Below, piece after piece: positions 12,897 through 34,410 of a DNA stretch of 34,410 bases. Made by a program: the position numbers and the translations under genes. Under the pieces are notes generated by a model. It was given only the letters and a program-made list of their open reading frames with translations, was not told where the DNA came from and did not search any database. Location: NCBI GenBank assembly GCA_024401365.1, contig JAKSLE010000026.1:1-34410 (forward strand), given 5' to 3'. The stretch's first letter is position 1, and each line of letters begins with the position of its first letter. This stretch comes from Bacteroidales bacterium (GTDB taxonomy: Bacteria; Bacteroidota; Bacteroidia; Bacteroidales; Marinilabiliaceae).

Positions 12897-14816
12897 ATGA
12901 AGTATATCGTACGAGTTTGTTTAAATCCCGATTTCGCGGCTAGAATGCATAGTGAGAATAAGACTATCCCAATGTTGATGCAAAAGTCGTTGGATAAGTA
13001 CATTCAGGAGTTGCTGTCGGGCAATGTTACCTACATGAATTTCAGAGCAGAGGATGTCAGTGGAGCAGAGTGTTACAAGAAAGTAATGAGCACATTCGAG
13101 TCATTGTACCCTGGGCATTCCAAGGCTATTGAAATATTGATAACAGAGGATGACGGATCGGAGAGAGCTGGTGCTATGGTAGATGTGTACAACCATTTTA
13201 TTGGCAATACAGAGTTGCTCAAGGTGTGCAATACCATCACAAGTGCCATGAAGTTTGCAAAAGACAAACCTTTTGCTGAGTCGTTGAAGTTGATGAACTA
13301 CCTTGTCTCTGTCGATAGCGGCTTTGGTTTTTCGTCAATTTTGCGTACCTGTTCCACCATGTTCTCCAAGATAGGCTTGTACGAAGACTGGAAAGATTCA
13401 CCGCTGGAGTATACTATCGGTAAGGAGAATACCAATGGCTGTACCACGGTCGACTCGTTTATAGATGCCATGTGGGAGGACGAGAACAACTCTCAGGTTG
13501 TCGGTATCGATATCAGTTATTTCCTCGATGAATTAATGCACGATGAACTGAGATTATTCCTCAAGCGCCTTAGCCGTGTACAGCAGTGCTTTATCTTCTT
13601 CTTCAGAGTGCCTTATCTCTCAGAGAAGGCGCTGAATGCGTTCAAGGATGTCTTGTCAGATATGGTAGAGCTTCGTCTTATCAGTCTGCCTCCTTTGAAT
13701 GAGATGCAACTTATAGAGTATGCCGATGTACGCTTGCGCGAGTTGGGCTTTGAAAAGATATCATATCGATTGTACGATACATATATCGACCGTATCCGCA
13801 GAGAAAAGATGGATGGTCGTTTCTATGGCTTGAATACAGCCGACAAGGTAATCAACGAGATGGTATGGGCTAAGATGTCACATGATATGGATGCCGACCT
13901 CTCGGGAGCAAATATAGTTACTGACAGAATAACAGAAATCGATGTCGTCTCTATACACGATGGTCCTGTTGATAAACTTACTGGTCTCGAGGAACTTGAG
14001 CAGTTGGTAGGCATGGGCGATATTAAGACCAAGATAGAGGAGATTGTAGCACAGGTATTGTTGTCGAAGCAGAATGACAAGCTCGACAACCCAAGTATCC
14101 ACATGCGATTTGTGGGCGCACCTGGTACTGGTAAGACTACAGTGGCACGTATCGTCGGCAAGATTTTCAAGGAGAAGGGTATCTTGTCCAAGGGCGGATT
14201 CTTCGAGTACGAAGCTAGCGCGCTTATAGGTGAGTATATCGGACAGACAGCACCAAAGGCACGAAATATCTGTCGTGATGCCTACGGTTCGGTATTGTTC
14301 CTCGATGAGGCTTATGCGCTCAACGATGGCGACAACCGCAATGGATACGGCAAGGAGGCTATTACTACGTTGATAGCCGAGATGGAGAACCACCGCGACG
14401 ATATGGTTATCATCATGGCAGGTTATCCCGACGAGATGAATAAACTTATGGACGTAAATCCAGGTCTCAGGAGCCGTATGCCTTTCGTGCTTGAATTCAA
14501 GAATTACGACCGAAAGCAGTTGGCCGAGCTCTTCATGAATATGGCTAAGGGGGCATTTGAGGTGGAGCCCGACCTGGAGCCTGCAGTTCGTGAGTATATG
14601 AATGGCTTGAGCGATGAGTTCCTCTCGTCAAAGGAGTTTGCCAATGCCCGTTTTGTGCGCAATCTCTACGAGCGTACATGGTCCAAGGCTGCCTATAGAG
14701 CCTCTGGTGAGGGATTGACAGATATTAAGTTGCGTAAGAGCGACTTCGAGAGTGCATCGCAAGAGAAGGAGTTTGGCGAGAGGATAGCTAAAAAGGTCAA
14801 TAGGGTAGGATTCTGA
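12897..14816 (+). CDS. AAA+ ATPase, CbxX/CfxQ-like, with degenerate N-terminal half
   Basis: 639 residues, cytoplasmic. The C-terminal half (about 365-639) is a CbxX/CfxQ (SpoVK/EccA-type) AAA+ domain: LEELVGMGDIK-like entry (here LEQLVGMGDIKTKIEEIV), Walker A GAPGTGKTT (407-415), pore-type GFFEYEASALIGEYIGQT, Walker B VLFLDEAYAL (466-475), sensor strand VIIMAGYPDEM and arginine finger NPGLRSRMP. The N-terminal half (about 150-340) looks like a second AAA-type fold without a P-loop: VVGIDISYFLDELMHDEL resembles a Walker B strand, and a lid-like helical part follows. Such ATPases remodel or activate other proteins (CbbX on Rubisco, EccA in type VII secretion). No matching client is encoded here, and the target is unknown. 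It stands alone on its strand, facing away from the lipoprotein group. Confidence 0.88.
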   Translation: MKYIVRVCLNPDFAARMHSENKTIPMLMQKSLDKYIQELLSGNVTYMNFRAEDVSGAECYKKVMSTFESLYPGHSKAIEILITEDDGSERAGAMVDVYNHFIGNTELLKVCNTITSAMKFAKDKPFAESLKLMNYLVSVDSGFGFSSILRTCSTMFSKIGLYEDWKDSPLEYTIGKENTNGCTTVDSFIDAMWEDENNSQVVGIDISYFLDELMHDELRLFLKRLSRVQQCFIFFFRVPYLSEKALNAFKDVLSDMVELRLISLPPLNEMQLIEYADVRLRELGFEKISYRLYDTYIDRIRREKMDGRFYGLNTADKVINEMVWAKMSHDMDADLSGANIVTDRITEIDVVSIHDGPVDKLTGLEELEQLVGMGDIKTKIEEIVAQVLLSKQNDKLDNPSIHMRFVGAPGTGKTTVARIVGKIFKEKGILSKGGFFEYEASALIGEYIGQTAPKARNICRDAYGSVLFLDEAYALNDGDNRNGYGKEAITTLIAEMENHRDDMVIIMAGYPDEMNKLMDVNPGLRSRMPFVLEFKNYDRKQLAELFMNMAKGAFEVEPDLEPAVREYMNGLSDEFLSSKEFANARFVRNLYERTWSKAAYRASGEGLTDIKLRKSDFESASQEKEFGERIAKKVNRVGF

Positions 14817-20407: not shown

Positions 20408-23400
20408 ATGAAACGATACACTAAGTTTTTAACGATTGTATTAGTCACACTTATTGCAGTGGTGAACACTGTTGTAGCGCAGCAATCGTTCTACAGCTAT
20501 AAGCCGTATGGTACATGGGATAGTCCTTATTCTTGGACTACGGTTAGTGGTGGTCTTCAGTATCAGAATGAAGAGTTGCTTTATCCTACTATGAATGCAG
20601 CTACAGGTAACATTGTTACTATTTCTGAGAACAAGAGTATGACATTCAACGGTTCAGAAGATGTTTTTGTAAAATCTTTGGATGTCAAGGGTACACTCGT
20701 TCTTGAAGGCGAGAACTCAATTAATGTTGAGAGGCTTACTGGTAAGGGCGAGATTCAGTTGAAGTCGTTCAGCCAGTTGAAGGTTAAAGCAGCAGATGGA
20801 ACATATAAGCCAATTAATTCATTTGCGGGTACTATCACGCTTGTCGGTACTGTTAACTTGAATGCGACTGAAGCGAATAAGTACAATTTTGCAAATATCA
20901 TCGTAAAGTCGGGCGAGACGACTATTACGGGTTCATTGACTGTTGCAAACAATTTGACAATTAGAGGGTTAGGCTCATTGGTGTTTGCTAATGTCGCAAA
21001 CAATAAACTTGTAGTAGGTGGCGATCTCACTATCGCAACTGGTGGACAGTTGAGCGCATTGGGAACTCAAGACAATACTCTTGAGGTAAGAGGTAGCTTG
21101 TTGAATAATGGTACTATTGGTGGTGTTCATATTGATGAGTCAAGCATTGTTGTCAATATCACTGATGAGCAAATCAGAAGCAAATATAACCTGACTCAGC
21201 CTACAGCTCCAGGTACTAAAGGATTTTCTTTGAGGTCCAGTGGTACTAGTTATATTGACCCAAGAGGTCAAGCATATCTTGCCGATATCGATAAGGGAGC
21301 CGAAATAGAAGTTAATTGGCAATCAAGTTGGAGCACGCAGCCTAAGGGAACTTTGGTCTTGAAAATTGGTGATTATACATTGTTCTCAAAGGAAGTGTCA
21401 ACAAATACTTATAATTTGACTAATACTTTTACTGTGGATGATAGAGTTGCTGCATTATTGCGATCCAATAAAGCTATTGTAGCAACCACAACGAGAACAA
21501 GTATATCAAGTATTACAATTAAGAATTATATCTCAAAGAGCGCAAATGATGCTTACGAGGCAGCCTTGGCTCAGTATAATACAGAACTGGCGGCCAAACG
21601 TGAGATTATGGAAGGCGAAGAGCGTCAGCGTCTGTTGGAGCAGATGATTAGTGAGGCAGCTTCTTCTTCTAGCTACATTACGGTTGAATTTACAGGAAAC
21701 AAAGATGCTGTTTTCCGTAATGTCGGTTTTGCTAAGTTTTACCACGTAAGAGGTTTGAAGGATAAAGGAAGGAGAATCGAGATTACAAACACAAATGGCG
21801 AAGATGCACTTATGGCTGTAGCTCCAACATTTAATGTAAAGAACTACAAAAACCTTCCATGGTCTGTAACATCTGGTATTCTTTCGCTTGGTGACGGTGT
21901 ACAGATTGATGCTTGGGGTGTCCCTCAGCTTAATACATACTACGATCACAGCATCGCTAGTTATATAGCGAAGAATGGTGCTATGTATATACCTAGTGGA
22001 GCAGTGTTGGAAATTGCTGGCGCAAAAGTCAGCGTAGGCGAAGCAGGTACAGATAACAATAGTAGGTATCGTGGCGCTGTGCTCATTGCGGGTACATTAA
22101 GAATGAAGGCAGGTGAATTGAATTTGCCTGACTATTCACCTGGTATATTCTTTATTAATGCTTCTGAGTATGGTGAAGCAAAGTCGACAGTACAACCACA
22201 GTTGTCTGTTGATGGTGGTGTCATAAACACAACTCGTATTGGAGTTTATAAGTATCAGCCTGCTGCGTTTAGTATGTCTGATGGTGAAATAAACTTTAAT
22301 AAGGAACTTAAGAATCCTGGTGATCAATATAATAAGTCTTTGTACTTGTCTACGGGCTCTCAGTTCGCTATGACTGGTGGTGTCATGACAATTACAAAAA
22401 CTCATACAAATTGGTCAAAAAAGGACATCAGAGGTATTTGGTTGGCCGACGACGCTAATGCAGATACTGATTCATATGTTCCATTGACATTTAATGTTAG
22501 TGGAGGTGAAATCGTTATTGATGGTACAGGTATGGGTGGTAACGAATTCCAGATATTTGGTCCTGGAATGAGTTTCCCTAATCTTACAATTAAGAATAAT
22601 GCGAAAGTTGCAGTAAATAATTTAAATACGTGGCCAGGTTATTTGGATAATCGTGTCTCTATTATAGACATGAATATTGGAAACGGATGTACTTTGAAGG
22701 TTTCAAAGTGTCGACTGCTTGTGTCTGGTAACGTAACATTAGGCTCCAATATTACATTACAAACTCCTGATGGTTCTGATCATGAGACGCTTGGTGCTGC
22801 ATACAGAAGAGATTTAGTATTCTGTGGCAGTAAGAATGTTACCTATTCAGATGCAGCTGCTAATGGTACAAGGTGGAAAAATGTAGTTTTGCAGAAGCCT
22901 GCAGGGTCAAAGATTACCATGAATGGTAACGGTTTGTATATGACTGGCAACTTGACTGCTGAATATGGTAAGATTGTTGGAAAGGTTAATATGGTCGGTT
23001 CTACAACTGAGACTATTACAGATAATTCCGACAATGTATCGTTTGCTGAAACTGAGCTCCATATTACAAATAATGTTGAGTTGGCAACCGATACACACTT
23101 TAATAATGTTATTTTCGATGCCGATAATAAGAGATTTAGCTTGTTGTCGTACAACCTTAAGCTTGAAGCTTATCCGTCTAGAACACAAGGTGATTGGGAT
23201 GAGAATTCAATGTTCTATACCAATAATAACGAAGCAGCTGGTGGTATTACATTACCTGTCCCATCGTCGTTGTCAAGCAATGATGCTATAACTGTTCACA
23301 TTGGAACATATGATGCACCTCAAGTTAAGTGTAAAAACTACATCTATACTCAGGTAAGGGCAAGGTATACAGCTCCTGCTAATTCTGGAAAGTATTGGAC

Positions 23401-26400
23401 AGTTGTTCCAGTTAACAATCTTCATCCTGTAATCCAATCGAGTGGTTTCAATGGTACATCATTTGACTTCTATTATATTTTCAAGTCAGATGTAAGTGAT
23501 TCAGATGCTAGAGCCATATCTGGTGGAGCAACGTATTATTGTAGGATGAAGAATAGATATAGTGTAACAGATTATAGAATTAAAACGCTTGACGTTGGAG
23601 GAACTTCTGTTATTTCTATTATAGATGATAAAGTAACGCAAGGTTGTGGAACGCCGGGTACTGAGGATAAATATACTGGCTTCCCTGGTTGGTATATTAT
23701 GAATTGTTCCACTTATGCATCATCTGATTTTACCATTAGTGCAATGACCTCAGATCCCGGTTCATCATACGTTTCAGTTGCTAATGGTAATTGGTATGAG
23801 AATATATGGAAAAAGTCGGACGACAACAGTGCTAATCCTACTAAGTATTCAGGTACTGTATTTAAAGCAACTACAAATGTGACTGTAAAGCATAATGTTA
23901 AAGTATATGGAGATAATAATGGTGGTGGCACTCATTTCAAGGCTGGTAAATTAGTCATAGATGAAGGGGCTACTCTTGAATTTGATTGTAACGAGATAGG
24001 GAATGTGTCTGTAAAGACTCTCGATGGTGAAGGTGTTTTGCAGTATAATTATAATGGTGGCAGTAAGATGCTTAGTGCAAACGTTTCTCGTTTCTATAGC
24101 AACAAGAAAGCTACTGTTAGGTACGTTATATCGCAAGCGTTAGATCAGATGTCAGGGACAAATGTAATGCCTAACCTTGAAATTGTCTCTACTGCATCAG
24201 GGTCTACCAAGTTCAATTGGTTGCTAAATTCATCTTCTACATCTAAGATTCTTGGTAATTTAACCATTGGAGAGAACGTAGATGCTTATCTTCATTCATG
24301 GGATAACGCGACATTGTCGGTAGAGGGTGATGTAAATGTCGCTCAGAATGGTAGGTGGTCAATATATAGCTCAAGAACGAGTGACAAACCTAATGAAGGA
24401 CGACCTGAGACGCTTATTTTCCATGGTAAAATCACTAATAACGGTCTTATTACTAGACAGATAGTGAAGGATAACCAAAATAAGAATGCTATAGCAAATG
24501 TTTATTTCTACGCAAGTATTGTAAACAACGGTACCATAGATCTTGAAGGGTTTAGTGTCTCAGCAGAGGGTGAGTCTCACAGCACAATTTCAGGTACATC
24601 TACTACTAAGGGCAAGACAAATCTTGGTGACTTGCACTTGAATAAGACTATTGGAACTGTGGGTATCACAACACAGCTTCCACTTGGCGATGCTACAGGT
24701 CTCTGTCTCTTGAAGATCGACCGTGGTCTCTTCCGTCATGCGTATGCAGGTGATATGATTACATACAAGGGTGATGACTGCTTCTACATCCCTGGCGATA
24801 GCAAGTTCTCTGTAGATAATGGTACAGCTCGTTTGTATGTGGCAGAGCCAACATCTGATAAGTGCGACCGTGTTAAGCTATCTGGTACTATCGAGGTGGC
24901 TAAGGGTGCTACACTTGATAACTTGGGTGGTATTGGATATACAAGTGGATCGAAGTTGACCAATAGAGGTGTTATTAATGCAGCGTTCTTATCTCCATTT
25001 GGTGGTGATGCGGACATTAACTTCACTCAAGTAGGAGGAACAACTTTTAAATTAGGACAGTCTTCAAATTATACGACCTACGATGAATATGGTGTATTTG
25101 ATGTTAGAGAGGGTTCAACCATTTCTATTACTGGAGGTTCTTTCTATATTTATCGAACAGCTAAAGACGACACTAATCCTACAATATTCTGCCATCCTAA
25201 TGTAAGTAATTTTGCTGACGGCGTAAGAGTGAATATTAATACACCTACAGAAAAGATTTGTAGGATAGATGCGAATTCTTTGGGTTATTTGTATGTCGGT
25301 AGTGTGGGGGGTGTTTCCTCAAAGGCTATGATAGCTAATAATCCGCTGAGACTTAGTCGTCTATATATTGCAAATGGTGAATTCTATTGTTGCGGCTATG
25401 ATCTCACGATTAAACACGTATCTAATGCTGCGCTAACATTAGTTGATAGAAATTGTGTCTTTAGTGTTGGGAATATTGATGGAAGTAGAAATGATATTAA
25501 TACAGTGACTTTTGAATGCATTGATGCAGAGCAGAGGGTGTCATCTGCTGCTAGTGATCTTTCATTTAACAATTTGGTATTTAAAGGATTGAATTTGAAG
25601 TTAAGTTGTGATATCAATATTAACGGAGAATTACGTGTAGATAAGGGTATTGTTCAGTCGTCGAAAATAATCCATTCTCGTGGAGATGTTTATGTTAACC
25701 AAGGTGCATCTGTAAATGCTGCATTGGTTATGGAGGGTACTGCTAACGAGCAGGCATTGAAGAATGAAGGTGAGATATCTAACTTGGTGATTAATAATGC
25801 TTTGGGTATTAATGCAACTGTTCAGCAGAATTATCCAAATACTATTACATCTGAGTTGTTGTTCCGTAAGGGTAACCTCCGTATCGGTAATAACTACCTC
25901 GATATTAGGGAGTCTGCTACAATTACGGATTACACAGGTGCTGGTGATGAGGCATCCTTCGGTCCAAATATGATGATTGTTACCAATGCATCTTATACCG
26001 ACCGTGGTGTACGTCTCTACTTCAACGCTGGTCAGGAGCGTAATATGGTACTCCCATTGGGTGATGGCTTTAAGTATTCTCCATTCGAGTTGAACCATGT
26101 AGTTGCTGAGGCTCAGGGTAATATCACCATCCGTGCTAATAAGGGTGTTAACTCATCTATCAGCAATAGTGATCTCTCTAAGACCAACTTTCTCAAGTTC
26201 TTCTGGACAGTCAATGCTAGTACAGCCTTCAGAGTTGCATCTGGCAGCTTCGTTATGAAAGACGATATTGCTGATGCAATCGGCTTAGGTTCAACATGTT
26301 CATTGCAGTCAGACGACGAGCATAAGTATGTCACATGTGTATTGAACAATACAACTGGTGAGTATGATATCAATGGTGGTAAGCTTGGTTCCACACGACT

Positions 26401-29400
26401 TATGTACAGTGGTACACAGTATGCGTATCTTGTATTGACATTCGACAAACTCACTGCTAAGGATGTTTCAGGTATCTATACTGCAGGTTGTATACTCGAT
26501 TTGCCTACCGATGGTGTTGGTACTTATCGTTCGGTTGCTGATGGTAACTGGAGTGGACAGGCTATATGGCAGAAGTTCAATCGTGAGACAAATTCATTTG
26601 AGGGGCCAGCTATTGAGGTGCCAAACAAGAATGGTTGTAAGTTTATTGTCAACCACAATGTAGTCTTGCATCCAGGTACAGATCCTGCAACTGATCCAGG
26701 TGACTCATTCATGAATATCTTCATGCTCGAGATTCAAGAGAATGGTGTAGTCGACTTCAACGCTACAGAGAACAATAATATCGGTTCTATCACAGGTACA
26801 GGTAAGATGATTCTTCGCTCTGCCGATGTGCCAGGTGCCGATTGCAATGAGTTCTTTGCTGAGGGCGGTGGTACTATAGAGTATTCAAGCAAGGATGTTG
26901 CTGTCGATTACAACGTATTCCTCCTCTCGCCAGTTCACAACAAGGTGATATTCTCTGGTAAGGGTAAGCGTATCTTGCCAAGTACAAATGATGTCATTGC
27001 AAATGGTGAGGTTATTGCAAATGGTGAGGTAGAGTTGGTACTCAGCGGTCAGGACTTCTTCATGCAGAAGGACTTTACCGTAAACAACAATACAGTATCA
27101 TGTACAGGTGATGGTTGCTTTATCTTCAATGGCAACGTTCCACAGGTAATGACAATCCCAGCGCCAATGTCTATAGCAGGTATTGGTGTTGACAATGCAC
27201 GTGGTTTGACTATCAACAATGATCTTACTGTAGGTAGCCTTACATTGACATCTGGTTATATCAAGATGGCAACAGATAAGACTTTGGCTATGGAGAGCGT
27301 ACAGTCGACAGTGAAGGTCAACAATGCTTCAAGCTTTGTTGATGGTTGGTTCTCTCGTCCAGTCGATGCTGCTAAGTATGTCACATTCCCTGTAGGTAAT
27401 GCCAATCGTGCAGCTTCTACAGATATCTACGCAACTGCTGCTGGTGTTTGGAAGGTACGATACACCAATAGAAAGTATGCGGCAGATGGTTCTGATCTCT
27501 ACAATAAGATTATGTCCGACCTCAACAATTCTATCGAGGGTATCGACAACGAGTATTGGGAGATTGATGGTCCAGCTAATGCAAGAGTTAGACTCCGTTG
27601 GGATGAGGAGTCTAACGTAACTGATGTAAGCAACTTGAGAGTTATTACACAGAGGAATGCTTCAGATTGGAAGTCTCTTACATACAGCAAGGGTGCATAC
27701 AATGCTACATCAGGTGTTCTTGTAACATCATCGCAGAGTTCTCGCGTAGGCAGCACACCACGAGTGTTCTTCTTCTCTACAAGTGCTGAGTCGGCTAGCT
27801 ACGAGTGGTGGGGCGGTGTAAGCAGCAGATGGGATGAGCCAGGCAACTGGAGTAAGAATGCAGTTCCATCTTCTACATCAGATATTACCATTATTCCTCT
27901 CGGTGATGATGCAAATCTCTTGGTTATCGACGATGATATTGATAATGGCAGAGCTAATGCTAAGTCTATCGTTATCGAGAATGGTGCTAAGATGACATTG
28001 CAAGGTGCAGGAACAATACTCTACGTTGAAGGGGATGTGACAATCAACACAGGAGGTCAGTTGACACTCAAGTATGATGTTGATGCCAATCCAAACTTCT
28101 TCGTTAAGGGTATCGTTACAGGTAAGACTACTGTAGAGCGTTCTATTGAGGCTGGCAGAAAGTACTACCTCGGTTCTGCAGTCACGGAGAGAAATATTAC
28201 TACAGGTAGCGACTGGAATGAGTCATATCTCTACATCCGTAAGTACGATCATCCAAACTACAAGTTTACAAACCCAGGCATGGTTGCTGGCAAGTACAGC
28301 TTCGACCGCCATGCTACATACGAGGGTGAGCCTAACTCATTGGCTGAGTCGTTGTGTACATTCGGTATTTACAACCTCGTAGGCAGCAGCGGACACGGCG
28401 ATGTAGTTACAGGTCAGAAGTACTCTTTCTTCCAGACTGGTACAGTATCTAATGCTACTAAGAAGTATACTCTGAATGCTTATCAGGGCTCTAACTGGTA
28501 TAGTAACCCATATCCATTCTCTTTGAAGATGACAAGGGATGCTATCAAGGTAATACGTCCTACTACTGGCAGTCAGATCGAGGAGACAGTCTACTCATAC
28601 GTAGTTGTTGATGATCAAGGCACATTCGACTGGAAGACATTCAACTTCGGTATTGGCGTTGGTCAGAGCTCTCTTGATGCTTTGGCACCATTCCAGGGAT
28701 TCGAGATCCTTTGTCAGGATGGCAACAAGGTATTCAATAATAACAATGTCAAATCGCAGCTCCAGTTGTCTCCAGTACTCTATTCAGAGGCTCCAGTCAA
28801 CTTGAAGTCGGCAGTGCTCGATCCTACAGTAGGCAAGGTTCTCCGTATCTTTGCAGGTAACGACTTGAGTTCAGACGAGCTAGTACTTCTCCTCAACGAC
28901 GAGGGTAGCATGGATAGAGTAATCGGCGACTCAGAGAAGAAGCCAAATCCTGCTCCTGATCTACTTAATGGTATCAGTACAAATAAGGGCGATAATGCTC
29001 TTGTTATTACTCACATGCCATCTGTACAAGAGTTGATAGCTCGAGGTATCACACTCCCAATCAATCTCTCTAAGGCAACAAAGGCAGATGAGTTGGTACT
29101 CTGGATCAAGAATATTGAGGAGTTCGATTTCACAGGTGATATCTACTTGATAGATAACCTCACAAGTGAAAAGTTCAACTTTACACGCGATGGTGAGTAT
29201 ACCTGTACAAACTTGGATAACCTCTATCCTGGTCGTTTCGAATTGTCATTCGTTCCTTCTGAAGAGAACATTCATCTTGGTGCAACAGCAATTGAGGAAA
29301 CAAAATCAGATGCCGGTCGTATCAAGATATGGGCTGAGTCGGAAGAGACAGCTCGAGTAACGATATTTGGCGATGTTGATAGTAATGCACGTGCTATAGT

Positions 29401-29539
29401 ATATGATGTTATGGGTCGTGTAGTTGCTACTCAGACATTGACAAATAAAGTATCTCAGATTGCAATACCATCTAAGGGTATGTATGTTGTAAATGTTGTT
29501 AACGGCAATGCAACAAAGTCCGAGAAGTTGGTAATGTAG
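20408..29539 (+). CDS. Giant T9SS cargo protein with repeated beta modules
   Basis: 3043 residues. Signal peptide FLTIVLVTLIAVVNTVVAQ. The last about 75 residues (IKIWAESEETARVTIFGD... ending NVVNGNATKSEKLVM) form a type A T9SS sorting domain, with MGRVVATQTL and GMYVVNVVNG as the usual motifs, so export to the cell surface is expected. At least four similar modules begin with a G-x-W...W pattern followed by a run of short strands with 'v.i..ga.l.f' periodicity: about residues 25-120 (YGTWDSPYSWTTV), 1120-1215 (VANGNWYENIWKK), 2037-2140 (VADGNWSGQAIWQK) and 2464-2560 (WWGGVSSRWDEPGNW). They lie between long beta-helix-like stretches. A Glu/Ala-rich helical stretch at about 378-420 interrupts the beta pattern. 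No catalytic motif was recognised; adhesin or surface-layer role inferred. Base composition changes along the gene: AT-rich about 20900-24600 and 25020-25700, richer in C-ending codons elsewhere. Confidence 0.88.
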   Translation: MKRYTKFLTIVLVTLIAVVNTVVAQQSFYSYKPYGTWDSPYSWTTVSGGLQYQNEELLYPTMNAATGNIVTISENKSMTFNGSEDVFVKSLDVKGTLVLEGENSINVERLTGKGEIQLKSFSQLKVKAADGTYKPINSFAGTITLVGTVNLNATEANKYNFANIIVKSGETTITGSLTVANNLTIRGLGSLVFANVANNKLVVGGDLTIATGGQLSALGTQDNTLEVRGSLLNNGTIGGVHIDESSIVVNITDEQIRSKYNLTQPTAPGTKGFSLRSSGTSYIDPRGQAYLADIDKGAEIEVNWQSSWSTQPKGTLVLKIGDYTLFSKEVSTNTYNLTNTFTVDDRVAALLRSNKAIVATTTRTSISSITIKNYISKSANDAYEAALAQYNTELAAKREIMEGEERQRLLEQMISEAASSSSYITVEFTGNKDAVFRNVGFAKFYHVRGLKDKGRRIEITNTNGEDALMAVAPTFNVKNYKNLPWSVTSGILSLGDGVQIDAWGVPQLNTYYDHSIASYIAKNGAMYIPSGAVLEIAGAKVSVGEAGTDNNSRYRGAVLIAGTLRMKAGELNLPDYSPGIFFINASEYGEAKSTVQPQLSVDGGVINTTRIGVYKYQPAAFSMSDGEINFNKELKNPGDQYNKSLYLSTGSQFAMTGGVMTITKTHTNWSKKDIRGIWLADDANADTDSYVPLTFNVSGGEIVIDGTGMGGNEFQIFGPGMSFPNLTIKNNAKVAVNNLNTWPGYLDNRVSIIDMNIGNGCTLKVSKCRLLVSGNVTLGSNITLQTPDGSDHETLGAAYRRDLVFCGSKNVTYSDAAANGTRWKNVVLQKPAGSKITMNGNGLYMTGNLTAEYGKIVGKVNMVGSTTETITDNSDNVSFAETELHITNNVELATDTHFNNVIFDADNKRFSLLSYNLKLEAYPSRTQGDWDENSMFYTNNNEAAGGITLPVPSSLSSNDAITVHIGTYDAPQVKCKNYIYTQVRARYTAPANSGKYWTVVPVNNLHPVIQSSGFNGTSFDFYYIFKSDVSDSDARAISGGATYYCRMKNRYSVTDYRIKTLDVGGTSVISIIDDKVTQGCGTPGTEDKYTGFPGWYIMNCSTYASSDFTISAMTSDPGSSYVSVANGNWYENIWKKSDDNSANPTKYSGTVFKATTNVTVKHNVKVYGDNNGGGTHFKAGKLVIDEGATLEFDCNEIGNVSVKTLDGEGVLQYNYNGGSKMLSANVSRFYSNKKATVRYVISQALDQMSGTNVMPNLEIVSTASGSTKFNWLLNSSSTSKILGNLTIGENVDAYLHSWDNATLSVEGDVNVAQNGRWSIYSSRTSDKPNEGRPETLIFHGKITNNGLITRQIVKDNQNKNAIANVYFYASIVNNGTIDLEGFSVSAEGESHSTISGTSTTKGKTNLGDLHLNKTIGTVGITTQLPLGDATGLCLLKIDRGLFRHAYAGDMITYKGDDCFYIPGDSKFSVDNGTARLYVAEPTSDKCDRVKLSGTIEVAKGATLDNLGGIGYTSGSKLTNRGVINAAFLSPFGGDADINFTQVGGTTFKLGQSSNYTTYDEYGVFDVREGSTISITGGSFYIYRTAKDDTNPTIFCHPNVSNFADGVRVNINTPTEKICRIDANSLGYLYVGSVGGVSSKAMIANNPLRLSRLYIANGEFYCCGYDLTIKHVSNAALTLVDRNCVFSVGNIDGSRNDINTVTFECIDAEQRVSSAASDLSFNNLVFKGLNLKLSCDININGELRVDKGIVQSSKIIHSRGDVYVNQGASVNAALVMEGTANEQALKNEGEISNLVINNALGINATVQQNYPNTITSELLFRKGNLRIGNNYLDIRESATITDYTGAGDEASFGPNMMIVTNASYTDRGVRLYFNAGQERNMVLPLGDGFKYSPFELNHVVAEAQGNITIRANKGVNSSISNSDLSKTNFLKFFWTVNASTAFRVASGSFVMKDDIADAIGLGSTCSLQSDDEHKYVTCVLNNTTGEYDINGGKLGSTRLMYSGTQYAYLVLTFDKLTAKDVSGIYTAGCILDLPTDGVGTYRSVADGNWSGQAIWQKFNRETNSFEGPAIEVPNKNGCKFIVNHNVVLHPGTDPATDPGDSFMNIFMLEIQENGVVDFNATENNNIGSITGTGKMILRSADVPGADCNEFFAEGGGTIEYSSKDVAVDYNVFLLSPVHNKVIFSGKGKRILPSTNDVIANGEVIANGEVELVLSGQDFFMQKDFTVNNNTVSCTGDGCFIFNGNVPQVMTIPAPMSIAGIGVDNARGLTINNDLTVGSLTLTSGYIKMATDKTLAMESVQSTVKVNNASSFVDGWFSRPVDAAKYVTFPVGNANRAASTDIYATAAGVWKVRYTNRKYAADGSDLYNKIMSDLNNSIEGIDNEYWEIDGPANARVRLRWDEESNVTDVSNLRVITQRNASDWKSLTYSKGAYNATSGVLVTSSQSSRVGSTPRVFFFSTSAESASYEWWGGVSSRWDEPGNWSKNAVPSSTSDITIIPLGDDANLLVIDDDIDNGRANAKSIVIENGAKMTLQGAGTILYVEGDVTINTGGQLTLKYDVDANPNFFVKGIVTGKTTVERSIEAGRKYYLGSAVTERNITTGSDWNESYLYIRKYDHPNYKFTNPGMVAGKYSFDRHATYEGEPNSLAESLCTFGIYNLVGSSGHGDVVTGQKYSFFQTGTVSNATKKYTLNAYQGSNWYSNPYPFSLKMTRDAIKVIRPTTGSQIEETVYSYVVVDDQGTFDWKTFNFGIGVGQSSLDALAPFQGFEILCQDGNKVFNNNNVKSQLQLSPVLYSEAPVNLKSAVLDPTVGKVLRIFAGNDLSSDELVLLLNDEGSMDRVIGDSEKKPNPAPDLLNGISTNKGDNALVITHMPSVQELIARGITLPINLSKATKADELVLWIKNIEEFDFTGDIYLIDNLTSEKFNFTRDGEYTCTNLDNLYPGRFELSFVPSEENIHLGATAIEETKSDAGRIKIWAESEETARVTIFGDVDSNARAIVYDVMGRVVATQTLTNKVSQIAIPSKGMYVVNVVNGNATKSEKLVM
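26996..27031 (+). repeat. 18-bp tandem duplication inside the giant gene
   Basis: ATTGCAAATGGTGAGGTT is followed by the same 18 bases with only the last base changed, encoding IANGEV twice. In frame, so the protein gains six residues and stays open. It looks like a recent slippage event. Confidence 0.9.
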
Positions 29540-29799: not shown

Positions 29800-29887
29800 G
29801 ACTCTGACACTGACTTTCCACTTCGCTGACTCAGACTCAGACTTAGTCGTAGTCGTAGTCAAAGTCGTAGTCGTAGTCAAAGTCAGC
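29800..29887. repeat. Hexamer tract, GACNNN switching to GTCNNN
   Basis: Units GACTCT, GACACT, GACTTT (29800-29817), a ten-base break, then GACTCA, GACTCA, GACTTA (29828-29845). Seven GTC units follow (GTCGTA twice, GTCAAA, GTCGTA twice, GTCAAA, GTCAGC) to 29887. The switch from GAC to GTC means the tract turns into its own reverse complement. It runs up to and over the stop codon of the amidase gene. Confidence 0.85.
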
Positions 29888-30290
29888 TCCCCCTATACTC
29901 CTCATAAGCGTCAAAGCAGGGCGAGTCCAGTTCTCTGTGGACGTCTTTCATGCCTATGGCTCTTATTCCTGGGAAGAGGTAGCCTAGGTTCTCTACCAGG
30001 TCGGCAAGGCGCTTTTTCTGCTTTTCTGTACGTGTGTCAGTAGGATAACCATGCTCATCCAGACCGCCTTCGTAGCAGATGCCGATACTATGATTATTGT
30101 GACCCTTGCAGTGGTGACCCGGTTGCGTGAGCAAGTGATGTTGCGTAAGTGTGCCATCTCGTCTGATATAAAAGTGATAAGGAATGTTTTTGTGCCCTTC
30201 TAGGACTGAGCGTACCCAGAGCTTGTTCTGATCAATCTCTTCGTATGGGTACGACATCGTTGCGTGTATTATGATAAGTCTTGGGTTCAT
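29883..30290 (-). CDS. N-acetylmuramoyl-L-alanine amidase-like protein (T7 lysozyme type)
   Basis: 135 residues with the Amidase_2/PGRP fold pattern. The first zinc His is in LIIIHATMS (H9), the catalytic-type Tyr in IPYHFYIRRDG (Y38), and HCKGHNNHSIGICYEGG (60-76) is the family core. Usual role: cleavage of the MurNAc-L-Ala bond of peptidoglycan. The C-terminal zinc site is odd. Bacteroidales relatives usually have GHRDL...ACPCFDA; here it reads GMKDVHRELDSPCFDA, so by simple alignment the His is Met114 and the ligand Cys is Ser123. H118 and C125 are nearby and might substitute. No signal peptide. In Bacteroidales such amidases typically follow a smalltalk gene, as here. Confidence 0.88.
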   Translation of the reverse strand: MNPRLIIIHATMSYPYEEIDQNKLWVRSVLEGHKNIPYHFYIRRDGTLTQHHLLTQPGHHCKGHNNHSIGICYEGGLDEHGYPTDTRTEKQKKRLADLVENLGYLFPGIRAIGMKDVHRELDSPCFDAYEEYRGS

Positions 30291-30487: not shown

Positions 30488-30590
30488 TCACGCAGATTCC
30501 GCAGATTCCGCAGATTCAGGGGATTTTTGGGTTTTGTTGCCGTACTTATGTGGATAATTTTGTAGCACGCAGATTCCGCAGACTTAAGGG
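30488..30590 (-). repeat. Two inverted copies heading the 61-bp array
   Basis: TCACGCAGATTCCGCAGATT (30488-30507, continued by a third CCGCAGATTC) and CACGCAGATTCCGCAGAC (30566-30583) are reverse complements of the GAATCTGCGTG core of the array that follows. Head-to-head placement allows hairpins with the first array units. The first copy lies 27 bp upstream of the smalltalk start codon. Confidence 0.8.
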
Positions 30591-30601
30591 ATTAAATGTG
30601 T

Positions 30602-31067
30602 AATCCTTATGAGAAAAAAAACCAGAATCTGCGTGAGATAATCATCCATACAAATCCGTATGAGAAAAAATCCCCCGAATCCCCAGAATCTGCGTGAGAT
30701 AATCATCCATACAAATCCGTATGAGAAAAAATCCCCCGAATCCCCAGAATCTGCGTGAGATAATCATCCATACAAATCCGTATGAGAAAAATCCCCCGAA
30801 TCCCCAGAATCTGCGTGAGATATTTATCCATACAAATCCCTATGAGAAAAAATCCCCAGAATCCCCAGAATCTGCGTTAGAATAATCATCCATACAAATC
30901 CGTATGAAAAAAAATCCCCAGAATCCCCAGAATCTGCGTTAGAATAATCATCCATCAAATCCTTATGAGAAAAATCCCCAGAATCCCCAGAATCTGCGTG
31001 AGAATAATCATCCATCAAATCCTTATGAGAAAAAAATCCCCAGAATCTGCGAAATCTGCGTGCGATT
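30602..31067 (+). repeat. 61-bp tandem array, eight units
   Basis: Units start at about 30602, 30653, 30714, 30775, 30835, 30897, 30958 and 31018, so the spacing is 51 once and then 60-62. Consensus parts: AATCCGTATGAGAAAAAATC, then CCCCGAATCCCCAGAATC, then TGCGTGAGATAATCATCCAT and AC. Units differ by few bases; there are no unique spacers. The array fills the whole gap between the 105-residue gene (stop at 31068) and the smalltalk gene apart from the inverted copies. The last unit carries the GAATCTGCGAAATCTGCGTG doubled core seen in the solo copy at 20158. Confidence 0.92.
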
Positions 31068-31385
31068 TTATCCCAAGGACTTATACATCTTCGCCGTCAC
31101 ATACCCCAGCAACGTCGAGTACTTACTCTGAGCCTTATACTCAGCCTCAAGAGCAGGACGAGTAGTGGCACTCTTTATAGCTTCAATAGCCTTTTCATGT
31201 GCCTCCTTAAACTTAGCACGAGCTTCAAGCTCATTCGGTGTAGGGGTGCGGTTGATCGCCTTGTCACGATTGTACCTGGCAATTATAACCTTGCCAGATG
31301 GTGTCTCACGGAAGAATGCATCTTCATCCTTGCCGATCATACCATGATAATGCTTCATAAAAAATGGGAAACAGGCTCCTTTCAT
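31068..31385 (-). CDS. 105-residue protein of unknown function
   Basis: Reads FRETPSGKVIIARYNRDKAI in its first third, then a Lys/Glu/Ala-rich helical part (ELEARAKFKEAHEKAIEAIK) and a C-terminal GYVTAKMYKSLG. No signal peptide, no membrane segment. I do not recognise a named domain. The 'SGKV..AR....' start followed by charged helices recalls small Bacteroidales mobile-element proteins, but this is only an impression. Alternative starts are Met10 and Met16. In related modules an HU-type DNA-binding gene often occupies this place; this protein lacks HU motifs. A TAnnTTTG box at 31495-31502 and the repeat arrays upstream probably drive and regulate it. Its stop codon is contained in the edge of the 61-bp array. 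Confidence 0.7.
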   Translation of the reverse strand: MKGACFPFFMKHYHGMIGKDEDAFFRETPSGKVIIARYNRDKAINRTPTPNELEARAKFKEAHEKAIEAIKSATTRPALEAEYKAQSKYSTLLGYVTAKMYKSLG

Positions 31386-31474: not shown

Positions 31475-31494
31475 GCTTGTTGAATTCAACGATG

Positions 31495-31502
31495 CAAAGT
31501 TA
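31495..31502 (-). promoter_or_regulatory. -7 element ahead of the 105-residue gene
   Basis: Minus-strand TAACTTTG, an exact TAnnTTTG, with no good TTTG at -33. Predicted transcription start about 31490, leader about 105 nt containing the hexamer tract. The eight-unit 10-bp array begins about 20 bp upstream of the box, where activator sites would be expected. Confidence 0.5.
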
Positions 31503-31522
31503 CGATGCCCATTTTCCTCACT

Positions 31523-31602
31523 GTCCGCTTTCGTCCGCTTTCGTCCGCTTTTGTCCGCTTTCGTCCGCATTTGTCCGCATTTGTCCGCTTTTGTCCGTTT
31601 TG
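31523..31602. repeat. 10-bp tandem array, eight units
   Basis: Exact 10-base spacing of GTCCGCTTTC, GTCCGCTTTC, GTCCGCTTTT, GTCCGCTTTC, GTCCGCATTT, GTCCGCATTT, GTCCGCTTTT, GTCCGTTTTG. GTCCG is invariant; only the last five positions vary. One unit per helical turn puts all GTCCG cores on one DNA face, as in iterons or multi-site operators. Confidence 0.95.
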
Positions 31603-31641
31603 AGTCAACCTTTTTCAGAGAGTCACATCATTCTTCTAGCC

Positions 31642-31696
31642 TATATGTGCTCTATATGTCTAGTATATGGTTAGTATATGTCTAGCGTATAGCCTG
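31642..31696. repeat. 11-bp tandem array, four to five units
   Basis: TATATGTGCTC, TATATGTCTAG, TATATGGTTAG, TATATGTCTAG and a degenerate CGTATAGCCTG, at exact 11-base spacing. It starts 7 bp beyond the DUF4248 stop codon (31704) in the direction of transcription. With the 10-bp array it makes up most of the 318-bp spacer between DUF4248 and the 105-residue gene. Confidence 0.88.
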
Positions 31697-31703
31697 ACAA
31701 AAC

Positions 31704-31967
31704 TCATAGACAGAGTCTTTCTGCTAGTATCTTCAATATCCCAGGAGTTAGTATCTTGTCGCCTCTCCTGTACCCATATATCTCCTCTGCTCTAATCTTC
31801 TTCAACCACCGCCTAAGTGTACGTTCAGATATCCTCAGTTCGCCTGCAAGCTCACTTTTTGTCATCGGTTTGTCTGTCCTTAATCGCTGAAGTGGCTGAA
31901 ATGTTTCGTCGTTATTGTTGCGTCTAGAAATTTCGTCGAAATCTGGAGTTAAATCAATGTCGTACAT
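31704..31967 (-). CDS. DUF4248-type helix-turn-helix protein
   Basis: 87 residues. The second half holds a helix-turn-helix reading KSELAGELRISERTLRRWL (about residues 38-56), followed by KIRAEEIYGYRRGDKILTPG and a final helix ILKILAERLCL, as in the small DUF4248 proteins of Bacteroidales. Probably binds DNA; the tandem arrays right downstream are natural candidate targets (inference). It lies between the DUF3987 gene and the 105-residue gene on the same strand. The ATG at 31967 is followed directly by MYDIDLTPDFDEISRR, and no better start is seen. Confidence 0.82.
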   Translation of the reverse strand: MYDIDLTPDFDEISRRNNNDETFQPLQRLRTDKPMTKSELAGELRISERTLRRWLKKIRAEEIYGYRRGDKILTPGILKILAERLCL

Positions 31968-31993
31968 GGGGTTACGTGCTTTTGTTAGGTGTT

Positions 31994-32054
31994 GAACATT
32001 TCAAATATTTCAATATTTCAGTGGGGTGTAGTTCTCATACGCGTGCGCGAGAGG
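31994..32054 (+). repeat. Inverted-repeat copy A (61 bp)
   Basis: Reads GAACATTTCAAATATTTCAA, then TATTTCA, GTGGGGTG, TAGTTCTCATAC and GCGTGCGCGAGAGG. Three ATTTCA units at 8-9-bp spacing, a G-rich core, then an alternating CG-rich end. Copy B in the DUF3987 gene is its inverted partner. It fills most of the 126-bp gap between DUF4248 and the DUF3987 stop. Confidence 0.88.
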
Positions 32055-32093
32055 TACGCCAACGACTCGAACTACCCCCTCTGAAACCTATTG

Positions 32094-34007
32094 TTACTTT
32101 CTCTTTTTGTTGTTATTGTTGCCTTTCTTCTTTATGTAGACGCCGTGGCCTACAGAGATTATTATACCGGTGGCCTTAGCTCTATTGAGCCAGGTGCGCA
32201 GTGTGGCCTCAGTGAATCCCATACGAAGACCCTCTTCTATAAATTCCTTGGCTGTAAACTGATCGGGCATCGCACGGAGGATAAGAGAAGCTTCACGAAG
32301 CTTGTTCGACTTCACCACTCTTCGTTCGAGGTGCGAGTAGGCGTGTGCAGCATGCTCGTAAAGCGAGTCGGCCATGTTGAGCATCCAATGGTAATCGTCG
32401 TCCGATATCTCCAATGTCCAGTTCTGGCTTATAGGCGAATCGCCTTTCTCGGGAGTCTGCTTCAGGCAAGGTTTAAGAAGACAACGCTGGGTGCCCCAAT
32501 CTTCCATTGCGCGGATAAAGGCAAATCCGGTCATCAGGCGTATCAGATTGATGATAGCACGCTTGACGTATGGTGACATCTCCTGGCTCACATCCTTCGA
32601 GAGTTTGTGGATATGACTGAACGACCTTGTAAGTAGACGTTTCTGGGTAGTAGAGAAGCACATCTCCACCTCTGAGTCATCTCCAAGGCGACTCTTTATC
32701 TGAGCCTCCCACTCTTCGCCCAACGAGCGGAAAAATTTCTTGATGTCGTACTTCTTGCCCCATTGATCTACAAATTCATCCTGTGTAGGCATGAAGAGGT
32801 AGATTCCGCGCGAGAATTGGCCGTTTTCAGCCGATTTAGTATGATCCTTGAGCTGTTCCTTGGTTCCGGTAAGAATGACCGTTATAATCGGCTTTTTGAC
32901 GATGATATTCTCTTCGTTCTTACGACGACGCATTCTTATAGGGTCGTGGTCGAACGATATACGCAGTATGGCACTGTTCTGCGAGCCACCGAAGTCGGAG
33001 TTGTTGGCTGTAGTCATCTCGCTCATCTCGGTAGCCAAAAGCACTACGTGACCGTTGCACTCATCTATGCCCTGTATTGTAGATGGACCAGAACTGTTCA
33101 CTGCCAAACTTGGGCATCGGAGTACCGGCTTCTTGGGCATAGGTGTATTGCCACGCTCCTTACCCAAACTGTAGAAAGCACGCATCTCCTCCTCGTATTT
33201 TGCCATAGCCGCCTTGTACTCATCCATACAACGTTCGTTGATGCCATCCAGCAGCGAGAAGGTCTTACTCACGCTTCCCTTGCTACTAGCCGAGTCTCCC
33301 CATACAATCAGATATACAGCAGGGTAGTAGGTCGATCCTCCATAGATAAACGTAGTTCTGTCCGATATGAAGTACGAAAGCAAGGCGATAGACGACAGCA
33401 GTGTAGCATCCTTCTCGGCATCGGTATCGAATACCTCCACTATCTTGCGCAATATCTTAGGGATATGGTAGCTCCAGTCGGTTACAAGATGAGGCAGTGG
33501 GAATGGATCCTCGTCCACCTCTATTTCAGACGAATCAACATACTCATCTCTAATTTGTGCATTTTTCCCTTGGAAGTTTCGATTATTTTCATATTCGCGC
33601 ACGCCTGTACGAGAAAAACACTGGGGTGAAATATTGAAATGTTTGAAATATTGCGACTGCGCATTGGATATGATATTATCCTGTCGTTTGTACTCCTTTT
33701 CCCATCGTTTCCAGAGAGTTACGTCGAACATTTGCTTCATCTCTATACCTGCTTTTGCACCCATGTAATAGAGAGTTCCAATGTTGATTTTTCCCGAACC
33801 TCTTCGGAGGGCATAGGTGTAATGGTAGTCGAAATCTCTGTCATTGTAACCGTTAGATGCTGCGCATATAGCGCGAGCGTATTCACGACCTTCCTCGCCG
33901 TGAGTTGTTGCAATCGCGGCGCATACGCGAAAAAACGAAGCGTAGTCGTCGCACAGGTGAATGCCCTTGGCTATCACCTGTTCTGTGAACCAGGTAAGGG
34001 TTCTCAT
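32094..34007 (-). CDS. PriCT-2/DUF3987 primase-helicase-like protein
   Basis: 637 residues from the ATG at 34007; a longer frame would need a GTG at 34043 lying inside the dispersed repeat. N-terminal part (about 1-100) resembles a PriCT-2 primase C-terminal domain (FFRVCAAIATTHGEEGREYA, then INIGTLYYMGAKAGI). A polar linker (about 105-160) contains inverted-repeat copy B. The DUF3987 ATPase-like domain has WGDSASSKGSVSKTF (about 230-245) at the P-loop position, VVLLATEMSEM as the Walker B-like strand, and VILTGTKEQL as a sensor-like strand. The C-terminus (about 575-630) is a winged-helix-like segment, MPDQFTAKEFIEEGLRMGFT, with a Lys/Asn-rich tail. Probably acts on DNA (priming or unwinding). 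It is first in the five-gene minus-strand module. Confidence 0.87.
   Translation of the reverse strand: MRTLTWFTEQVIAKGIHLCDDYASFFRVCAAIATTHGEEGREYARAICAASNGYNDRDFDYHYTYALRRGSGKINIGTLYYMGAKAGIEMKQMFDVTLWKRWEKEYKRQDNIISNAQSQYFKHFNISPQCFSRTGVREYENNRNFQGKNAQIRDEYVDSSEIEVDEDPFPLPHLVTDWSYHIPKILRKIVEVFDTDAEKDATLLSSIALLSYFISDRTTFIYGGSTYYPAVYLIVWGDSASSKGSVSKTFSLLDGINERCMDEYKAAMAKYEEEMRAFYSLGKERGNTPMPKKPVLRCPSLAVNSSGPSTIQGIDECNGHVVLLATEMSEMTTANNSDFGGSQNSAILRISFDHDPIRMRRRKNEENIIVKKPIITVILTGTKEQLKDHTKSAENGQFSRGIYLFMPTQDEFVDQWGKKYDIKKFFRSLGEEWEAQIKSRLGDDSEVEMCFSTTQKRLLTRSFSHIHKLSKDVSQEMSPYVKRAIINLIRLMTGFAFIRAMEDWGTQRCLLKPCLKQTPEKGDSPISQNWTLEISDDDYHWMLNMADSLYEHAAHAYSHLERRVVKSNKLREASLILRAMPDQFTAKEFIEEGLRMGFTEATLRTWLNRAKATGIIISVGHGVYIKKKGNNNNKKRK
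33594..33653 (-). repeat. Inverted-repeat copy B, inside DUF3987 gene
   Basis: On the minus strand it reads CAATATTTCAAACATTTCAA, then TATTTCA, CCCCAGTG, TTTTTCTCGTAC, AGGCGTGCGCGAA. Against copy A the first 26 aligned bases differ at two positions, the G/C core is replaced, and CTC(A/G)TAC and CGTGCGCGA are kept. It encodes about residues 119-138 of the protein, a linker with YFKHFNISPQCFSRTGVRE. Confidence 0.88.
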
Positions 34008-34040
34008 TTTTCTTTTTGTAATAAAATTTTGTTGTATTAG

Positions 34041-34410
34041 CACGCAGATTCCGCAGATTCTCGCAAATCGAATCAGAGAGAGAAAAAATCCCCCGAATCC
34101 CCCAGAATCTGCGTGAGATAAATCAAATCCGTACGAGAAAAAATCCCCAGAATCTGCGGAATCTGCGTGAGATAAATATCAATACGTATGAGAAATAATC
34201 CCCCGAATCCCCCGAATCTGCGTGAGATAAATCAAATCCGTACGAGAAAAAATCCCCAGAATCTGCGGAATCTGCGTGAGATAAATATCAATCCGTATGA
34301 GAAAAAATCCCCCAAATCCCCCGAATCTGCGTGAGATAAATCAAATCCGTACGAGAAAAATCCCCAGAATCTGCGGAATCTGCGTGAGATAAATATCAAT
34401 CCGTATGAGA
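34041..34410 (+). repeat. 109-bp higher-order tandem array, runs off window
   Basis: Starts with an inverted copy (CACGCAGATTCCGCAGATTC, 34041-34060) 34 bp upstream of the DUF3987 start codon, then alternates two unit types. Type 1 carries CCCCCGAATC...TGCGTGAGATAAATC and ends CCGTACGAG. Type 2 carries CCCCAGAATCTGCGGAATCT and ends CAATCCGTATGAG. GTACGAG recurs at 34131, 34240 and 34349, an exact 109-bp spacing. It is related to the 61-bp array and the solo copy at 20158. No gene is seen in this stretch, and the array continues beyond the window. Confidence 0.92.

Follow-up and report, generated by a model that had tools for sequence, protein, structure and literature searches.

The 34,410-nucleotide stretch of DNA analysed here (hereafter the window), contig JAKSLE010000026.1 of the Bacteroidales genome GCA_024401365.1 (family Marinilabiliaceae; contig C19 of genome G000 in our numbering), carries near one end a gene for a DUF3987 protein that is associated with an inverted repeat, one copy of which lies beyond the 3' end of the gene (copy A) and the other inside its coding sequence (copy B). 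Computational comparison of this locus with its relatives reveals paired inverted sites whose short tandem units (iterons) match within a locus, conservation at the DNA level, predicted helicase and winged-helix folds in the encoded protein, and a mosaic break at the linker that holds the inner site. Iteron-bearing sites that occur only in inverted orientation, match within a locus and surround an MCM-like helicase with a winged helix are most simply explained if A and B are paired inward-facing sites of a self-encoded replication-initiator helicase, that is, a two-part origin inherited together with its initiator. We give this interpretation, which is built on sequence comparison and structure prediction, about an even chance of being correct.

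An inverted repeat with one arm inside the DUF3987 gene

The initial annotation had described a 60-bp inverted repeat with one arm in the gene, and this feature proved to be real. Copy A (the downstream-type site, 31995-32052, forward strand) and copy B (the linker-type site, inverted, 33595-33652, reverse strand) have arms of 58 nucleotides (nt) each, with a complementarity of 74% when ungapped and 79% when gapped (the gapped value coming from the whole-genome search). The local score of the pair, 55, compares with a mean of 19.9 and a maximum of 32 among dinucleotide shuffles, none of which (0/2000) reached the observed value. From outside to inside, each copy comprises three ATTTCA-type units (the outer iterons, at 31995-32020 in A and 33627-33652 in B), a core that is unlike between the copies, and an inner GCGTGCGCGA block (32041-32050 in A; 33595-33604 in B, where it is given as TCGCGCACGC), and the two copies face inward. 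The reported match of 24 out of 26 positions between the ATTTCA blocks was likewise borne out, and the second shared block, CGTGCGCGA, is identical in both copies. Copy A is indeed intergenic, about 40 bp beyond the DUF3987 stop codon and 27 bp upstream of the start of a gene for a small helix-turn-helix (HTH) protein, and copy B does lie in the linker between the PriCT-2 and DUF3987 parts, where it is translated as approximately residues 131-150, within a stretch predicted to be disordered (residues 121-178, codons at 33510-33683, reverse strand).

The encoded protein (649 amino acids, 32094-34043, reverse strand) has the order PriCT-2, linker, DUF3987, winged helix. Its bracketed part includes a replicative helicase domain, as residues 191-570 fold like an MCM helicase in the predicted structure, and the C-terminal domain (residues 582-638, codons at 32130-32300, reverse strand), a candidate iteron reader, has the predicted order helix-strand-helix-helix-strand-strand and structure matches to winged-helix domains. 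PriCT-2 is part of the window protein itself, and a BT4734-family primase gene lies just upstream in relatives. As a side observation, the C-terminal model m8afb81f21954 matches, among other structures with tied scores, Zalpha (Z-DNA-binding) winged helices, and the sites are rich in alternating pyrimidine-purine tracts; the coincidence may be due to chance.

Paired inverted sites in other DUF3987 loci

We surveyed the 80 best of 124 confirmed DUF3987 loci, all 80 belonging to named genomes, together with five others, 85 in all, of which 82 were usable (L086 and L108 were dropped for too little downstream DNA and L103 for a contig end). With a score of at least 40 as the threshold for a pair, an inverted pair made up of a linker site and a partner at or beyond the 3' end of the gene was found in 38 of the 82 loci, and a pair in direct orientation in none (0/82). 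Two of 320 other gene segments used as controls reached the threshold, both with the score of L126's own pair, because the fused open reading frame (ORF) of this locus puts its own pair inside those windows; when linkers were compared with the downstream regions of other loci, 230 of 6642 combinations did so. Pairs occur in 27 of 39 loci from Bacteroides, Phocaeicola, Parabacteroides and Caecibacteroides (below, the Bacteroides group), in 11 of 27 from the remaining taxa and in 0 of 16 from Flavobacteriaceae, the respective counts at a looser score of 29 being 34, 12 and 3; ten loci below the threshold have matching units by eye. A wider window applied to L089, L090, L091, L101 and L102 gave scores of 18, 18, 41, 25 and 19, respectively, L091 representing one more pair, outside the 38.

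The element is mostly 45-65 nt long; two or three 8-10-mers in tandem are combined with a variable core and, in most cases, with a tract of alternating pyrimidines and purines. In the Bacteroides group, the plan is two or three tandem 8-9-mers (e.g. AACTTGCA, TTGGTACAC, GGGACAGTG), a core, and CTCACACACACGCGCG or a similar sequence. A repeat period of 8 or 9 fits best in 58 of 66 blocks, and the longest alternating pyrimidine-purine run has a median of 18 and 22 at the two sites, compared with 6 elsewhere in the genes. In four annotated loci from Bacteroides and Parabacteroides (L198-L201), the neighbours of the DUF3987 module include genes for capsule or other surface sugars.

Variant sites with GAGGAA-type repeats and an internal hairpin were noted in seven loci from rumen and gut Bacteroidia (L146, L148, L157, L158, L163, L167 and L170) and in L091. 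The distance from the stop codon to the 3' copy is about 530-575 nt in the seven Bacteroidia loci, and all four that were examined have an ORF of 91-99 amino acids on the opposite strand in between; in L091 the sites are at 5049-5113 and 6586-6649, with the 3' copy 173 nt past the stop codon.

The position of copy A just ahead of the HTH gene, together with the fact that initiators often autoregulate through iterons, raises the question of whether the sites are operators, to which the initiator or the small HTH protein would bind so as to repress or loop the operon. We consider this unlikely. Three of the four annotated loci have the DUF4248 gene on the other strand, which places the 3' site between converging genes, in 14 of 35 loci the 3' site begins no later than the stop codon, and a second operator in the middle of a gene would be unusual.

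Locus-specific matching and conservation at the DNA level

The tandem units vary between loci and agree within one locus. When fixed windows were compared in 33 loci, own pairs had a mean score of 56.9, as against 29.6 for permuted pairs and 37.7 for pairs permuted within iteron families, and none of 10000 permutations reached the observed own-pair mean. These tests used 33 of 37 loci (L085, L120, L124 and L132 were left out as near copies), selected for having a CA-type anchor in each copy. If the linker and the 3' region of the mRNA paired as a long stem around the helicase-coding part, one would also expect inverted complementarity covarying from locus to locus. We find this explanation scarcely credible: the sites exhibit no G-U preference (48 wobble-compatible versus 73 mirror transitions, with 132 transversions, in 38 loci), and such pairing has no need of tandem iterons.

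The initial annotation held that absence of the motif from related genomes would speak against a DNA function. The exact sequence is indeed nearly absent, as only two of 61 genomes of the genus, family and order, namely the present one and another with a weak match, contain it at E<=0.01; the arrangement itself is kept with other sequences. We abandoned an initial notion of a species-specific oddity once a syntenic locus of the same genus (contig C30 of genome G013, L088) was seen to have a pair of different sequence, with TTCTGGCA units, in inverted orientation at the same two places. This locus has PriCT-2, DUF3987, the HTH protein, a 105-amino-acid protein and an amidase in the same order as the window, and its PriCT-2 and DUF3987 are separate ORFs with the site between them. 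The linker motif is met in all three codon frames (17, 9 and 8 of 34 loci), and in L125 and L128 PriCT-2 and DUF3987 are in different frames, the shift lying close to the motif. Since the codon frame varies between loci, the linker is predicted to be disordered and the element falls between two ORFs in one relative, the element is conserved at the DNA level.

Two loci of one Bacteroides metagenome-assembled genome, L111 and L127, form a mosaic pair with a break at the linker. Their BT4734 genes are 73% and their PriCT-2 parts 84% identical at the DNA level, and the identity runs to 47 and 17 nt before the linker site. Beyond it, only a 329-nt stretch of the helicase core (75%) aligns, the C-termini hardly match and the iterons differ; L127 can in turn be aligned to L159 and L134 across the DUF3987 part, with 72-74% identity.

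Given the iterons, the within-locus matching, the changes of codon frame and the MCM-like helicase with a winged helix, the suggestion that the linker DNA is kept as a binding site (by the logic of iterons and origins) is the best supported of the three ideas put forward in the initial annotation, although the binding itself is our conjecture.

Paired sites without the gene

A search of the genome with copy A yielded eight matches at E<=10, the best four being A, B and one further pair in contig C16 (L009). The members of this pair, A' (5262-5333) and B' (approximately 13030-13105), face inward and enclose hsdM, hsdS and hsdR of a type I restriction-modification (R-M) system, a RelBE-like pair (recognized by eye) and a 104-amino-acid ORF. 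The DNA left of A' aligns with window positions 31480-32051, the alignment ending at the inner edge of A, and B' aligns over 106 nt with 33564-33669. In the same contig, at about 5480-5690, upstream of hsdM, a segment with complementary ends (GAAGCGTAGGAAA .. TTTCCTACGCTTC) resembles a structured RNA, with no Rfam match at the gathering threshold.

A pattern search for AACTTGCA units in five genomes returned 12 sites in three of them, including three DUF3987 pairs, two weak single sites and four sites linked to ribosomal RNA (rRNA) genes. The latter lie upstream of three rRNA operons of P. vulgatus ATCC 8482 (16S confirmed by Rfam), at L195 3946-4778, L196 2675-3522 and L197 3344 (cut off within the motif). 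Two of these operons have full AACTTGCA pairs enclosing about 0.7-0.8 kb, with the interiors in opposite orientation; GTTAGTAAC palindromes were observed inside these rRNA-linked pairs.

The opposite interiors (L195 4179-4772 versus L196 3226-2675, 68.6%), the inverted-only orientation of the pairs and the fact that inverted repeats do flank a segment are what one would expect if recombination between the copies flipped the DUF3987 segment, as the initial annotation also envisaged, and switched the protein off. At the DUF3987 loci this idea found no support: PriCT-2 and DUF3987 are collinear in 77 of 80 assembled loci, the other three having no PriCT-2 match, and inverted in none, with the caveat that the locus search ranks collinear loci first and the sampling thus favours them. 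Moreover, the cores diverge more between copies than the iterons do, and the modules of L198-L201 contain no annotated invertase; L199 has an integrase gene just outside its module. Inversion thus appears highly improbable to us.

A stricter pattern of GGNACA units, applied to seven genomes, gave seven sites, four in DUF3987 linkers and three elsewhere (L209, L210 and L211). Inward-facing partner sites with about 200 nt or less between them were found in L211 (P. vulgatus) and L209 (B. faecis), and none was found for L210. As L209-L211 were retrieved with linker-type patterns, retention of the linker site in them is by construction; the C16 pair was found via copy A. P. vulgatus, B. faecis and G000 each have a full locus of the same iteron family elsewhere in the genome.

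These gene-less or re-filled pairs invite a different explanation, in which the sites are the ends of a mobile or exchangeable cassette whose contents (the DUF3987 part, the R-M operon, short non-coding segments) are swapped by a recombination system. The third idea of the initial annotation, a mobilised segment, is of this kind, and it gains from the A'/B' pair around the R-M operon, where the match with the window ends at A's inner edge, from the pairs with little between them in P. vulgatus and B. faecis, and from the linker-side homology of gene-containing and gene-less copies, which ends beyond the outer side of the iterons, at 17-18 nt in three cases (C16, L209 and L211) and at 20-36 nt in L210. 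It loses from the absence of a recombinase within the window bracket, which holds only DUF3987 (supply in trans being conceivable), and from the location of PriCT-2 and the primase outside the bracket. The L211 edge also argues against it. L211 is collinear with full loci held at the same place in relatives, is multiply deleted, and retains pieces of primase-side and helicase DNA, also further out; owing to this collinear alignment, we read L211 as a decayed full locus in which both sites survive, its edge being a deletion edge. A target duplication was not seen in L211, the one locus checked for it (by eye). Overall, we regard the cassette explanation as possible yet rather doubtful.

A putative two-part origin

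Under the two-part-origin interpretation, the winged helix would recognize, at either site, the 8-10-bp iterons particular to its locus, local unwinding would be aided by the alternating pyrimidine-purine tract that each site has on its inner side, and the two inverted sites would load helicase assemblies in opposite orientation. With one site in the disordered linker and the other at the 3' end, initiator and sites would be co-inherited as a module of about 1.6 kb.

Several points weigh against this interpretation. Binding, unwinding and replication by the DUF3987 protein are activities that we postulate. The median site spacing of 1501 nt (range 1414-1918, 35 loci) is large for a single origin, and the alternating pyrimidine-purine runs at the window's own sites are short (9 and 14). 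In a sequence-profile comparison, two unrelated PDB chains outscored the MCM C-terminal domain (E 0.05), and the window contig ends before the primase gene. Only 18 of 33 linker copies had their own downstream copy as the best match, alone or tied, in a test that used blocks picked by own-pair score and is less fair than the fixed-window permutations; the own copy fails to rank first because related loci have iteron families in common, and most of the misses fell on loci of the same family. Iteron similarity correlates (Spearman) with similarity of the DUF3987 part (0.56), the C-terminus (0.57) and PriCT-2 (0.44; 0.17 partial, given DUF3987), values that carry shared ancestry and are descriptive, and the presumed reader domain is not singled out, the DUF3987 core and the C-terminus being nearly equal. 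Paired sites persist where the gene has been lost or replaced, which is unexpected for a plain origin. Nor did we find a bracketed locus on anything extrachromosomal. Viral contigs scanned twice, each time with a single protein from bracketed loci as the query, yielded no relative; an alignment scan did turn up distant relatives on two viral contigs, and both lack an inverted pair (best scores 25 and 19). Of four near-full-length plasmid matches at least two carry housekeeping genes. The even chance that we allow the interpretation reflects these postulated activities, the lack of an extrachromosomal carrier among the elements searched, and the fit of gene-less or re-filled pairs to the cassette explanation as well.

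Regarding possible carriers, the plasmid-labelled L198 and L199 (B. finegoldii and P. distasonis) contain housekeeping-type genes (rsx; gap, miaA, kdsA) and look like mislabelled chromosome pieces. The unannotated virome scaffolds L085 and L086 carry a DUF3987 gene.

Comparison with known replication systems

Initiators with iterons of their own are already known. The origin of phage P4 has a second site, crr. RSF1010, unlike our loci, uses three separate proteins, and its sites lie close together and outside genes, ssiA and ssiB being in opposite orientation. To our knowledge, no known initiator has a second, inverted copy of its site kept inside its own coding linker. We encountered no description of the arrangement, and no reported role for DUF3987 modules, in the open-access literature searched (subscription journals being mostly uncovered). 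Like the Bacteroides invertons, the DUF3987 loci have inverted repeats, here with one of them in a gene; unlike in invertons, no inversion is seen and the iterons match better than the cores.

The closest parallels come from initiators that combine several activities. In the alpha protein of phage P4, a helicase is combined with a winged-helix domain that recognizes short repeats in the protein's own origin (PMC4234260), much as proposed here. P4 alpha differs in its Toprim-type primase, and the accessible part of that source describes neither an inverted in-gene site nor locus-by-locus iteron families (PMC4234260); the DUF3987 loci are, as far as seen, chromosomal, unlike P4. In ORF904 of pRN1 and in phage BIP-1, an archaeo-eukaryotic primase, a helical or PriCT-2 domain, a superfamily 3 helicase and a winged helix follow a similar domain logic, and the proposed origin lies just 3' of the initiator gene, the place of the 3' site here (PMC4234260). 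That proposed origin is a large stem-loop without iterons, whereas the DUF3987 loci have iterons, a helicase that is MCM-like by fold and, 1.5 kb from the 3' site, an inverted counterpart within the gene. The RSF1010 origin resembles our loci in having iterons and a pair of special sites (ssiA, ssiB) for a primase-helicase set (PMC4234260). Budding-yeast origins, where two opposed ORC sites load an MCM double hexamer, likewise have two opposed sites and an MCM-type helicase (PMC12440816). The yeast sites bind ORC rather than the helicase and there is no homology of sites, and loading of two hexamers at DUF3987 loci is our conjecture.

A bolder version would see here a self-licensing bacterial origin, with an MCM-like initiator loaded both ways from a pair of inverted iteron sites that 1.5 kb separate, the inner site lying in a disordered linker of the initiator's own coding sequence, with site and initiator diversifying per locus and moving as one module, and with the gene-less pairs (rRNA- and R-M-linked) served in trans; we deem this version improbable. 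The arrangement suggests a testable function, namely sequence-specific docking at two sites, and the loci supply natural matched initiator-site pairs for specificity swaps. They also show an element of the DNA persisting in a protein-coding linker while the codon frame shifts. If two-site loading were true, it would be a bacterial parallel to the opposed-site loading of MCM helicases.

Neighbouring genes and tandem arrays

The small gene whose start adjoins copy A (31704-31967, reverse strand, 87 amino acids) had been taken for a DUF4248 gene. It has no Pfam or NCBIfam DUF4248 match at E<=0.01, its comparison with one annotated DUF4248 protein gave 13.5 bits (E 0.38), and we classify it as encoding an HTH protein; a degenerate copy adjoins A' in contig C16. 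The same gene set comprises the 105-amino-acid protein (31068-31385, reverse strand; no Pfam or NCBIfam match at E<=0.01) and an N-acetylmuramoyl-L-alanine amidase identified by a domain match (Amidase_2; 29883-30290, reverse strand). Of 71 genomes of the family, the present one (with two copies) and G013 gave matches to the 105-amino-acid protein at E<=1e-20; of 393 drawn from the order, the present one alone did.

Tandem arrays accompany these genes. The window has a 10-bp array of TGTCCGCTTT (8.2 copies, 31522-31602, forward strand) and an 11-bp array of TATATGTCTAG (31642-31685, forward strand), L014 has another 10-bp array, CATTACGACG, near the 105-amino-acid gene, and 11-bp arrays of differing sequence occur beside the HTH gene in L088 and in the interval from DUF3987 to the 105-amino-acid gene in L014. 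The arrays of these two loci lie at L088 2753-2819 and at L014 1203-1234 and 3246-3308. The period is thus 11 bp in three loci and 10 bp in two, with a different sequence in each, and these are possibly further locus-specific binding arrays. Tandem arrays of 54-61-bp units (TATGAGAAAAAATCCCC..GAATCTGCG) flank the module at 30580-31066 and 34062-34410, the contig end falling inside one of them; copies related to this unit are scattered in the genome, and the unit has TACGAGAAAAA in common with copy B. Finally, an ORF of 3043 amino acids (20408-29539) has a signal-like N-terminus and a C-terminus resembling, by eye, a secretion-sorting domain.
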